A stretch of DNA of 64,000 nucleotides from Paenibacillus sp. Lineage in GTDB: Bacteria; Bacillota; Bacilli; Paenibacillales; YIM-B00363. The stretch spans positions 1 through 64,000 of the forward strand of contig NZ_DASQNA010000046.1 in NCBI RefSeq assembly GCF_035645195.1. Reading direction: 5' to 3'. The stretch's first letter is position 1, and every line of letters begins with the position of its first letter. The notes under the pieces are model-generated. The model was not told where the DNA came from. It worked only from the letters and a program-made list of their open reading frames with translations, and did not search any database. Shown here piece after piece: positions 20,298 to 50,092 of this stretch. The position numbers and the translations under genes were made by a program.

Positions 20298-20695
20298 CTT
20301 ACACGCTATCCCCGTCGCTCAGCATTCATCTCCAATTTTTGCTTCCCTCATTTCCCTCCGTCCTTTCATCTTCCGCTTCTGCACCTGCTATCCCCTTGCC
20401 TCAGGATGTCCCGCAAAAACCTCTTTTGAAATAAATCCTTACAAACGACGATCCCATCGACTCGACTGCCACTAATTACTACGATTACCACTAATCACTT
20501 CCATTACCACTAATCAATACCACTACCACTAATCAATACCATTACCACTGATCACTACCATTACCAGTACTCCTGCCACTGCCACCGCCAATGCCCGAAT
20601 GTCCGTCCCCTGCTTTTATTACACGTTATCCCATCCACTCAGCTTCCGCGCAATGAACCTAGCACGCCCGCTTGCGTGCTATCCCCTTCACTCAG
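20298..20695 (-). repeat. Inverted copies of the 25-bp core repeat (left side of locus 1)
   Basis: Four diverged copies of the core seen in the array to the right, but in opposite orientation: 20298-20322, 20380-20404, 20618-20642 and 20671-20695. Each reads CTTAC or a variant, then CTATCCC, then CTCAG on the plus strand. Spacing is irregular. Confidence 0.7.
20468..20581. repeat. 19-bp minisatellite
   Basis: Five to six imperfect tandem units of 19 bp with the core ACCACTAATCA (starts at 20468, 20487, 20506, 20525, 20544 and a degenerate 20563). The sequence is strand-asymmetric, poor in G, and has no coding potential. It lies between inverted copies of the 25-bp core repeat. Confidence 0.8.
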
Positions 20696-20760: not shown

Positions 20761-21256
20761 CTGCTGAGTCGAAGGGAGAGCGTGTAAGGCTGAGGCAACC
20801 TGAGCCACGGGGATAGCGTGTAAGGAGGCGACAACTTGCTTAGCCAAGGGGATATCACGTAAGGAAGCGACAACTTGCTGCGTCAAGGGGATAACACGTA
20901 AGGAGGCGACAACTTGCTGAGCCAAGGGGATTTCACGTAAGGAAGCGGCAACCTGCTGAGCCAAGGGGATAGCGCGTAAGAAAGCGATAACTTACTGAAC
21001 CAAGGACATACCACAAAAGAAAGCGGCAACTTGCTGAGTCAAGGGGATACCACGTAAGAAAGCGACAACTTGCTGAGCCTAGGGGATTTCACGTAAGAAA
21101 GCGGCAACTTGCTGAGTCAAGGGGAGACCACGTAAGGAAGCGGCAACTAGCTGAGTCAAGGGGATACCAAGTAAGAAAGCGGCAACCTGCTGAACCAAGG
21201 GGATAACCACGTAAAGGAAGCGACAACTAGCTGAGCCAAGGGGATACCACGTAATA
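20761..21256 (+). repeat. 39-bp tandem array, 13 units, carrying the 25-bp core
   Basis: Thirteen units; the GTAAG at the end of each unit recurs at 20784, 20820, 20859, 20898, 20937, 20976, 21015 (degenerate), 21054, 21093, 21132, 21171, 21211 and 21251, i.e. almost exactly every 39 bp. Each unit has CTGAGYCAAGGGGATA, then CACGTAAG, then a purine-rich AAGCGGCAACTTG spacer. Because 39 is a multiple of three, open frames run through the array, but there is no ribosome site or domain and I regard it as non-coding. Confidence 0.9.
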
Positions 21257-21321
21257 TCCGAGGAAATGGAACAAAAAAAGGCCAGCGGACGTCGTCCAAA
21301 GGCCATTTTCGCTCACCTGTT

Positions 21322-47968: not shown

Positions 47969-48092
47969 CTTACGCGCTATCCCATCGGCTCAGCCGTCAC
48001 CCTTCGAACCTCCCCGACGCATTTCTTACGTGATATCCCATCGACTCAGCAAACCAATGCAACTTCACTTACGCGATATCCCTGCGGCTCAG
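47969..48092 (-). repeat. Three inverted copies of the 25-bp core (left of transposase-like gene)
   Basis: Copies at 47969-47993, 48025-48049 and 48068-48092, each reading CTTACG, then TATCCC and GGCTCAG or a close variant on the plus strand; these are reverse complements of the copies to the right of the gene. Spacing is 56 and 43 bp. Confidence 0.85.
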
Positions 48093-48138
48093 CAAATACT
48101 TATCGCAGCATTTGTTTGCAGCCATTTACCATCAATCA

Positions 48139-48167
48139 TTGAAATGCGAACATTTGTTTGGTATAAT
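48139..48167 (+). promoter_or_regulatory. Promoter of the transposase-like gene
   Basis: TTGAAA (48139-48144), a 17-bp spacer and a perfect TATAAT (48162-48167), 34 bp before the GTG start. This is one of the best SigA matches in the window and argues that the gene is expressed. Confidence 0.7.
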
Positions 48168-48201
48168 GAGGGAAAGTTTTTGGAAATCGGTGGGATTTCT
48201 T

Positions 48202-49023
48202 GTGGAGGATATCGTTCAATTCTTCTACCAAAGAAAATGGCCTGACGGGTTTCGTTGCCCCCGGTGCGGACATTCAATCGCTTATACCATTCATTCGGAA
48301 AAGCGCTCCCTGCCCTTATACCAGTGTCAGGCTTGTAAACATCAAACGACCCTAACCGCCGGTACCGCTCTGGAGCGAAGCCGTACGCCCCTCGAAAAAT
48401 GGGCAGTCGCGATCCAAGCCATGTCCCGCGACGAAAGCATTAATGCCGTTCAATTAATGGGCATCATCGCCGTTACATATAAAACAGCTTGGTCCATGCT
48501 GAGAAAACTTCGTCAATGCATCAACCAGTGGGATGCGGCACAACCGTTGGTCGGCCGACTGGCAGCGGGTGCCGCCACGTATGGTACCCCCGCTTTTCGG
48601 ACATGCCTGCGATATCCCCACGAACGTCCGGTTATCGTTGGCATTTCGTATGACCGAACTGGAAATCCGATCTATACGAAAATGAAACCCGGCGATGCCG
48701 AACTGCTGCGGAACGCCTCGAAACGCCGACACTGGGAAAACGAATTTGTTCGGAACCATGTCAGAAGCGAGTTCCCCGTTCAGATCTTACCGCGCATCCC
48801 TTTTCACAAAAATGAGGACTTGCGCAGTGCATACTATTCCGCCACATCTTGGATCCATCGAACATTTCGCGGCATCAGCTCCCGATATTTAGAGCTGTAT
48901 TTTGATGAATATTGCTTTAGAATCAATATGCGGCTCCATGGTCAAAATCCAATTGAGGTGCTGCTATCCGCCTGCATGCAGACGTCGTCACACACATCAA
49001 TACGGATGGCTGCTGCAGCATAA
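48202..49023 (+). CDS. IS1595/ISXO2-like transposase-related protein lacking the expected catalytic motif
   Basis: A 273-residue protein. Residues 1-60 hold the IS1595-type zinc ribbon (RCPRCGH ... YQCQACKHQTTLTAGT) after the typical RKWPDGF. A helical domain (about 65-110) and a region collinear with the ISXO2-like DDE domain follow, ending in LELYFDEYCFRINMRL. Where active relatives have a DE-containing strand, this protein reads PLVGRLAAGAATYGT, with no acidic residue, and no clear second Asp is seen. The start is GTG with GGTGGGA six bases upstream. The reading frame is intact, and local GC is lower than in neighbours. No terminal inverted repeats are evident. Possibly a domesticated or decayed transposase. 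Confidence 0.7.
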   Translation: MEDIVQFFYQRKWPDGFRCPRCGHSIAYTIHSEKRSLPLYQCQACKHQTTLTAGTALERSRTPLEKWAVAIQAMSRDESINAVQLMGIIAVTYKTAWSMLRKLRQCINQWDAAQPLVGRLAAGAATYGTPAFRTCLRYPHERPVIVGISYDRTGNPIYTKMKPGDAELLRNASKRRHWENEFVRNHVRSEFPVQILPRIPFHKNEDLRSAYYSATSWIHRTFRGISSRYLELYFDEYCFRINMRLHGQNPIEVLLSACMQTSSHTSIRMAAAA

Positions 49024-49591
49024 TTTATTCAAATATTTAACGAAATTAATAAGTTATCACAATCGTAGGACAAGAGCAGGTTCTTAAGCACAAATAACGG
49101 CGAAAGTTAACATAAATAAGTACTTTGGGAAAATTTCAAACTAGTAAGCATAAGTAATCCCAGCTATCGGATATCGATTTTAAACCTCTTAAAGTGTGGA
49201 GAGAAATTACCTCCAAACGAACTCTCGCTCCATCCTAATGCGATGCATGTAATTATCTGAACCAATGGGATAACACGTAAGGCATCGAAGCGCGTGGTAG
49301 CCCAACCCCCAAACCGTCATCGTTGTAAATGCAGCGCTCCTCGTTACCGTCTGGTTGCCGAATGGACTCTCTCATTCGCTGATTTTAGGGGACAACGTGT
49401 TATTAATGACGTATCTTTCATTGCAGCCGGAACAGATCCAGAGGAACACCCCCTTACCAACTCGCGGAAGTCGTTAGTAAAACGATTTGGGAACGTACTG
49501 AGCCAATGGGATAATGGGTAGGAATGTGGAGGCCGCGTGGAGATCTGCAGAGAAAGTAGGAGAACGGGATGGGCACAGCGAGGCTTCCCTT
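49024..49591. other. AT-rich intergenic stretch with two isolated core repeats
   Basis: Lower-GC sequence after the transposase-like gene with no supported gene. Single copies of the 25-bp core lie at 49257-49281 and 49498-49522, both in the same direction as the array that follows. An open frame of 75 codons at 49294-49521 lacks a ribosome site. Confidence 0.55.
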
Positions 49592-50040
49592 CTGAGTCGA
49601 TGGTATAGCGCGTAAGCGTGCGCGGAGAGGCTTTCTGCTGAGCCGATGGGATAGCGCGTAAGCGTGCGCGGAGAGGCTCACTGCCTGAGCCGAAGGGATA
49701 GCGCGCGTAAGCGTGCGCGGAGAGGCTCACTGCTGAGCCGATGGGATAGCGCGTAAGCGTGCGCGGAGAGGCTCACTGCCTGAGTCGATGGGATAGCGCG
49801 TAAGCGTGCGCGGAGAGGCTCGTTGCTGAGCCGAAGGGATAGCGCGCGTAGGCGTGCGCGGAGAGGCTCACTGCCTGAGTCGATGGGATAGCGCGTAAGC
49901 GTGTGCGGAGAGGCTTACTGCCTGAGCCGATGGGATAGCGTGTAAGCGTGCGCGGAGAGGCTTACTGCCTGAGCCGAAGGGATAGCGCGTAAGCGTGCGC
50001 GGAGAGGCTCACTGCCTGAGCCGATGGGATAGCGAGTAAG
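49592..50040 (+). repeat. 46-49-bp tandem array, 10 units, carrying the 25-bp core
   Basis: Ten units; the terminal GTAAG recurs at 49612, 49658, 49707, 49753, 49800, 49848 (GTAGG), 49895, 49942, 49989 and 50036, mostly 47 bp apart. Each unit has CTGAGCCGATGGGATAGCGC plus GTAAG, then a CGTGCGCGGAGAGGCTCACTG spacer, which differs from the spacer at the 20.8 kb array although the core is shared. The units are more alike here than in the other array, suggesting recent amplification. Confidence 0.92.
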
Positions 50041-50056
50041 AGTCCGAGAGCATGCA

Positions 50057-50092
50057 AGAAGCCCCATCCGCGCAAAAGGCGGGTGGGGCTTC
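50057..50092 (-). terminator. Hairpin terminator after ftsZ
   Basis: A 14-bp GC-rich stem (GAAGCCCCACCCGC with its partner on the minus strand) just downstream of ftsZ; the T tract (TTCTTG) is weak. It lies 16 bp from the end of the tandem array. Confidence 0.6.

Follow-up and report, generated by a model that had tools for sequence, protein, structure and literature searches.

A predicted catalytically dead IS1595-derived protein family and the outward-facing end repeats that diverge with it in Paenibacillus and its relatives

The window, by which the whole 64,000-nucleotide stretch of Paenibacillus sp. DNA analysed here is meant, carries a gene descended from an IS1595 transposase and flanked on both sides by copies of a 25-bp core. 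The gene belongs to a family in which a dead protein under purifying selection, a LexA-box promoter and outward-directed cores that diverge together with the protein are gained and lost jointly, a combination that was computed directly from the genomes compared and about which there is little doubt. The best overall explanation, favoured here with some reserve, is a dead IS1595-derived family in which the gene, its SOS promoter and its end sequences have been kept together and have co-diverged, with a protein that would bind and pair its own cores.

Organization of the locus

The features of the window are collected in Table 1. The original prediction had described the gene with inverted cores on its left and direct cores, including a ten-unit array, on its right; the gene and these cores all lie where it placed them, as read from the sequence and found by core pattern search, and the opposite facing of the cores on the two sides holds both here and order-wide, as an outward excess in two sets of loci. 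Its list of cores was incomplete, leaving out a second, gene-less cluster in which inverted cores are likewise followed by direct ones, so that they face outward, and its account included neither the LexA box, nor the loss of catalysis, nor the descent of the cores from the IS1595 terminal repeat.

Matches to the core with up to 3 mismatches number 26 in the window, against 0 in each of 100 dinucleotide-preserving shuffles. Pattern searches, from which the genome-wide core counts derive, found 26 matches in the whole 5.95-Mb genome, all within the window's two clusters and 0 elsewhere, and 0 matches for a control pattern. ACTACC-like simple repeats lie by the gene-less cluster, at 20469–20585. 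The outer right ends of the two clusters adjoin hairpins resembling intrinsic terminators of the neighbouring gene (50055–50092 and 21270–21315), and the right ends of five copies in the complete genome G008 (L134, L136, L140, L157 and L164) likewise abut terminator-like hairpins.

Table 1. Positions of the gene, its promoter and the two clusters of cores in the window
Feature	Position	Strand	Basis or remark
IS1595-derived gene, 273 aa, GTG start	48202–49023	+	Open frame, profile matches, alignment, structure model
Parts of gene product: zinc ribbon (Pfam PF12760), helix-turn-helix region, RNase H-like remnant			Remnant without catalytic residues
Promoter, TTGAAA (48139–48144), 17-bp spacer, TATAAT (48162–48167)	48139–48167	+	Sequence reading
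Putative LexA/SOS box, GAACATTTGTTT	48148–48159		Inside promoter spacer; kept upstream of homologues; motif also upstream of host lexA genes
Left core 3, outermost	47969–47993	-	Directed away from gene
Left core 2	48025–48049	-	
Left core 1	48068–48092	-	Nearest promoter
Right single core 1	49257–49281	+	
Right single core 2	49498–49522	+	3 mismatches
Right array, ten units	49592–50040	+	Period ~47 bp, core at start of each unit
Gene-less cluster, left arm	20298–20695	-	Inverted cores at 20298–20322, 20380–20404, 20618–20642 and 20671–20695
Gene-less cluster, right arm	20764–21255	+	Core at 20764–20788 and 39-bp-period direct array at 20800–21255

Lost catalysis and retained selection

The IS1595 zinc ribbon profile PF12760 matches the window protein (E 1.4e-9; 38.2 bits, cut-off 25.4), and the DDE_Tnp_IS1595 profile PF12762 (11.5 bits against a cut-off of 27) and NF033547 (58.4 against 75) stayed below their thresholds. 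No HUH/Y1 domain was found, the Pfam and NCBIfam matches being to the IS1595 zinc ribbon and IS1595 only, and a sequence search of solved structures gave no significant match. The structure model is confident (mean pLDDT 91.7) and its second half is RNase H-like; its closest structural neighbour is the ISCth4 transposase (Z 8.1 over 177 residues), followed by HIV integrase, a Z score this low denoting fold resemblance only.

In an alignment of 157 members with canonical relatives, the second catalytic Asp is present in 0 and the first in 8, the third residue is not conserved, and the 24-residue segment that holds the second Asp has shrunk to 9 residues in 134 members; the zinc cysteines are kept in 154–157 of the 157. 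The window gene had been described as an intact IS1595/ISXO2-like gene, which is correct for the reading frame but not for catalysis, as none of the three catalytic residues is left and the second-Asp segment is deleted. On the evidence of its aligned sequence, the window protein is a catalytically dead IS1595 derivative. The dN/dS ratio is 0.13–0.28 for orthologous pairs with unsaturated dS and 0.055–0.28 for within-genome copies of the dead family. Purifying selection combined with the loss of catalytic residues implies that selection maintains the protein for something other than DDE chemistry.

Beyond the zinc ribbon, K94, A96, W97, Y233 and E236 are among the residues that hardly vary; no acidic position in this near-invariant set is peculiar to the dead clade, E236 being common to canonical members. 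The data are consistent with a single origin of this clade but support it weakly (85/32), and such an origin is not claimed. One PHROG of unassigned function matches the N-terminal half of the protein. Two further roles were set aside: PADLOC gave no match that would point to anti-phage defence, and a tblastn search of 50,697 phage records gave none that would point to phage cargo. Plasmid records held distant IS1595 transposases only, with identities of no more than about 30% in the best rows.

Outward polarity and co-divergence of the cores

The gene has homologues in 44 of the 121 relatives compared, among them Paenibacillus, Cohnella and Ammoniphilus. The first set of loci consists of 81 neighbourhoods (80 fetched, plus the window) and includes L144, later shown to be a canonical IS1595. 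The core pattern CTGA-N5/6-GG[GA]A, counted within 1.5 kb of the gene, gave 259 outward cores (137 left-inverted and 122 right-direct) against 14 inward ones (4 and 10), with at least one outward core at all 81 loci and outward cores on both sides at 67. A replication set was taken from a scan of species genomes with the pattern fixed beforehand, and 66 of its 80 named loci were kept after duplicates of the first set had been removed. These loci have 215 outward cores (126 and 89) against 12 inward (5 and 7), and sequence more than 2 kb from the gene gave 9, 5, 5 and 4 matches.

Homologues without nearby cores, which the original prediction had named as counting against a link, are rare (0 of 81 loci, and 3 of 66 with the fixed pattern); two of the three exceptions (L241 and L252) are canonical IS1595 elements with the catalytic Asp pair in place. 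Nor were repeats common in genomes lacking the gene, the other adverse outcome that it had named: CTGA-N6-GGGATA has 0 matches in 800 kb from four gene-negative genomes, where about 1.5 are expected by chance, and 12 matches in 300 kb of G008, a stretch not picked for known clusters.

The left flank of a locus matches its own right flank, in the inverted sense, with a median score of 20, against 13 between loci. Similarity between cores rises with similarity between the proteins (Mantel r 0.569; maximum over 2000 permutations, 0.104), and the left–right core match within one locus is 0.713, compared with 0.559 for divergent paralogues of the same genome. The specific tie between gene and repeat that had been proposed for the window is thus borne out across the order by flank matching, outward polarity and the tracking of protein by core.

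The window's genome encodes at least three other relatives of full length (L028, L029 and L030), 37–42% identical to the window protein, each of which sits among its own distinct repeats with the same core grammar, such as CTGAGGCAAGGGAAAGCGGG at L029 and CTGAGGAAAGGGAAGTTTTGCGG at L030; all 12 occurrences of the latter core are at the L030 locus. At contig ends of this genome (L031/L032 and L033/L034), halves of dead-family genes that are 95–98% identical stand beside quite different arrays; the near-identity of gene halves beside unlike arrays, which break the assembly, points to gene conversion or to recent copying from one locus to another. One of these halves lies next to a 34-bp-period array (L034, 879–1249; TCAGCGCAGCGACGCTTGCTCGGAGCTTACTGCA) that departs from the core grammar. 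Dead-type genes flanked by outward cores are also seen beyond the window's order, at five loci (L307, L321, L327, L330 and L334) of G248, a member of a different family of the class, with as many as six cores per side.

A putative SOS promoter older than the loss of catalysis

The box GAACNNNNGTTC is found upstream of the gene at 45 of the 81 loci of the first set in exact form and at 75 with at most 1 mismatch, against 0 and 4 in the downstream control. The corresponding counts in the replication set are 44 and 64 of 66, so that the two sets together carry the box, with at most 1 mismatch, at 139 of 147 loci. The same motif occurs 2–5 times upstream of lexA in six of these genomes, and because the lexA genes bear the same boxes, GAACNNNNGTTC is very probably the host LexA motif; LexA would accordingly be expected to bind the box in the promoter.

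Canonical IS1595 elements of the group also carry the LexA-box promoter, which indicates that the box is older than the loss of catalysis. Among these, L144 and L171–L176 of G075 combine this promoter with 8-bp target duplications and include several frame-disrupted copies; they form an active or recently active group, probably under SOS control.

Descent of the cores from IS1595 ends

Canonical IS1595 copies in the related genomes have intact DD residues and short terminal inverted repeats (TIRs). A core matrix built from the 264 nearest cores reads CTGA-N6-GGGATA, an A being favoured around position 25. When the flanks of seven canonical elements were scored with this matrix, the element's own left TIR was the top window in five cases and the second window in two; one terminal repeat matched in this way is CTGAGCTAACTGGAGAATCAAA in L241. 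As the top-scoring window is the element's own left TIR in five of the seven canonical elements, the cores evidently descend from the IS1595 terminal repeat.

Joint gain and loss, and multiplication

Some members of the family hold the same place across a genus. The window's element lies between ftsZ and spoIIGA, a site common to G000, G001 and G002 (protein identity 50–52% to G001 and G002), and is absent from this site in G003, G004 and G005 of the same genus. The ftsZ region was read in 17 other genomes, 16 of which have a spacer of 184–510 bp without the gene or paired cores; the seventeenth, G012, has no spoIIGA match and no cores in this region. Between G001 and G004 the flanks are 97% identical and enclose 1339 bp with gene and cores in G001 versus 130 unrelated bp in G004. 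Gene and cores therefore come or go together, and the difference most likely reflects loss of the whole element from the ftsZ site of G004.

The complete genome G008 contains 104 core sites in 33 clusters and G092 contains 29 sites, beside the 26 sites in two clusters of the window's genome. All 21 two-sense clusters among the 100 G008 sites listed face outward, 9 of them with the gene and 12 without. The twelve gene-less elements retain different parts of the gene, which points to separate deletions; a MITE or REPIN amplified from one ancestor, an idea that these gene-less clusters had raised, is therefore rejected. Together with the probable loss in G004, these remnants indicate that the element is dispensable. 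Similarity among the G008 copies runs past the outermost cores, so that the cores are not the exact ends of the element.

Close within-genome copies of dead-family genes occur at unrelated loci in G008, G092 and G073, and one genome holds up to about 14 intact copies in addition to 12 gene-less remnants. Something must have multiplied the copies at unrelated loci, and a protein that is wholly non-catalytic fails to account for this multiplication.

Proposed mechanism and alternative explanations

In the mechanism proposed here, DNA damage would lead to cleavage of LexA and production of the protein, a multimer of which would bind its own cores to the left and right of the gene and bring the two ends together, as a transposase does ahead of cleavage, though no cleavage would follow. 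The descent of the protein and the co-divergence of protein and core argue for this binding and pairing. Binding of the cores is, taken by itself, quite probable, and autoregulation and core bridging would be its likeliest consequences; that one or the other is the protein's main role is a tentative suggestion. Arrays would arise from slippage or unequal exchange of one end, and dispersal to other sites would require a further enzyme or recombination by the host.

The copies at unrelated loci would also be expected of an element that is still mobile through an unrecognised active site, its protein cutting or moving its own ends by altered chemistry, comparable to RAYTs but with a different fold. 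No hit in the G008 search qualified as a canonical IS1595 transposase, and purifying selection acts on all copies, both of which suit such an element. The same test for target duplications that found a perfect 8-bp duplication in 4 of 5 canonical copies, its positive control, found none at any offset in 130 dead loci, where insertion age could hide one, and the near-invariant residues offer no acidic candidate of the dead clade's own. Retained mobility of this kind is consequently rated unlikely. A self-spreading pair without DDE catalysis, in which the protein would bind the ends under SOS conditions and host repair or recombination enzymes would copy them to new sites by a route that bypasses transposase chemistry, is a doubtful proposal.

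A domesticated host gene, kept for the benefit of the cell and encoding an SOS-inducible DNA-organising or regulatory protein with the cores as its chromosomal operators, would accord with purifying selection, with the positions that some members keep across a genus and with the putative LexA control. This is improbable in view of the varying presence of the gene among close relatives, the numbers of intact copies and gene-less remnants reached in one genome, and the confinement of the cores almost entirely to the neighbourhood of the gene, rather than the dispersal expected of operators.

Hitchhiking, in which an active IS1595 transposase would mobilise the dead elements in trans and their own protein would be useless, draws on the relationship between the cores and canonical terminal repeats and on the coexistence of canonical and dead copies in at least one genome (G038; L141 and L147). 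It is very improbable, however, as canonical copies were found in only 5 of 61 relatives, their TIRs differ from the dead cores and form no tandem arrays, dead loci lack target duplications, and a useless protein would show neither a dN/dS of ~0.1–0.28 nor the tracking of its core. Chance insertion of an ordinary IS remnant beside an unrelated repeat family, in favour of which it can be said only that both are common, can be dismissed given the outward polarity in two locus sets, the core–protein tracking, the G008 clusters and the gene-negative sampling, and is refuted by the replication set.

The preferred explanation remains a dead family whose protein would bind and pair the ends with which it has diverged. 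As a second pairing of a transposase-derived protein with end repeats, in an unrelated enzyme class, the family suggests that such coupling arose more than once. With catalysis gone and selection and the SOS promoter remaining, it permits a direct test of what a transposase that only binds DNA is worth to an element or its host. It also accounts for puzzling tandem and inverted intergenic repeats in many Paenibacillus and Cohnella genomes, and would correct the annotation of dead-family genes as active IS1595 transposases.

Comparison with known systems

The IS1595 family is usually characterized by 8-bp target site duplications, one transposase gene and an N-terminal zinc finger (PMC8101967). 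The canonical copies of the present genomes (L144, L147, L148, L171–L176, L241 and L252) resemble the dead family in the zinc ribbon, the helix-turn-helix region and the C-terminal sequence, as well as in the LexA-box promoter and in having a terminal repeat akin to the core. They have both Asp residues and 8-bp target duplications, whereas the dead family has neither, and its cores, often arrayed, can be as much as a few hundred bp distant from the gene.

RAYT genes are flanked by their own REP repeats, which form inverted pairs and tandem clusters and are matched in type to the protein (PMC3116915, PMC8266576), and RAYTs are the only prokaryotic domesticated transposases tied to a repeat family, as described in PMC8266576. 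The analogy with RAYT–REP that the original prediction had drawn is sound as regards layout, as both systems (REPtrons, in the case of RAYT–REP/REPIN) comprise a transposase-derived gene flanked by its own repeats, with repeat type following protein type and with inverted pairs and tandem clusters beside the gene. Beyond layout it fails. RAYTs are HUH/Y1 enzymes with palindromic REPs that carry a GTAG tetranucleotide, and are present in a single copy per type, whereas the dead family is of DDE descent, is predicted to be catalytically dead, and has non-palindromic cores and close within-genome copies. A REP-like hairpin was rejected, the folding energies of the cores being no better than those of shuffles, and the gene-less copies, unlike REPINs, are independent deletions of gene-bearing ones and not one amplified short element. 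No earlier report of such an IS1595-derived dead protein–repeat pairing was found in the literature searched, where most subscription papers were missing; what appears to be new here is an IS1595-derived protein–repeat pair whose protein is predicted to be catalytically dead and putatively SOS-controlled.

IS1 InsA and the Tn5 inhibitor are non-catalytic, end-binding derivatives of transposases that are made by an active element. The dead-family protein would likewise bind ends but leave them uncut, and might repress the promoter of its own gene, but here no active element encodes it. Control of a transposase gene by the SOS response is known from ISCR (PMC13393415), which resembles the present family in LexA control and differs from it in having an active enzyme of a different class.
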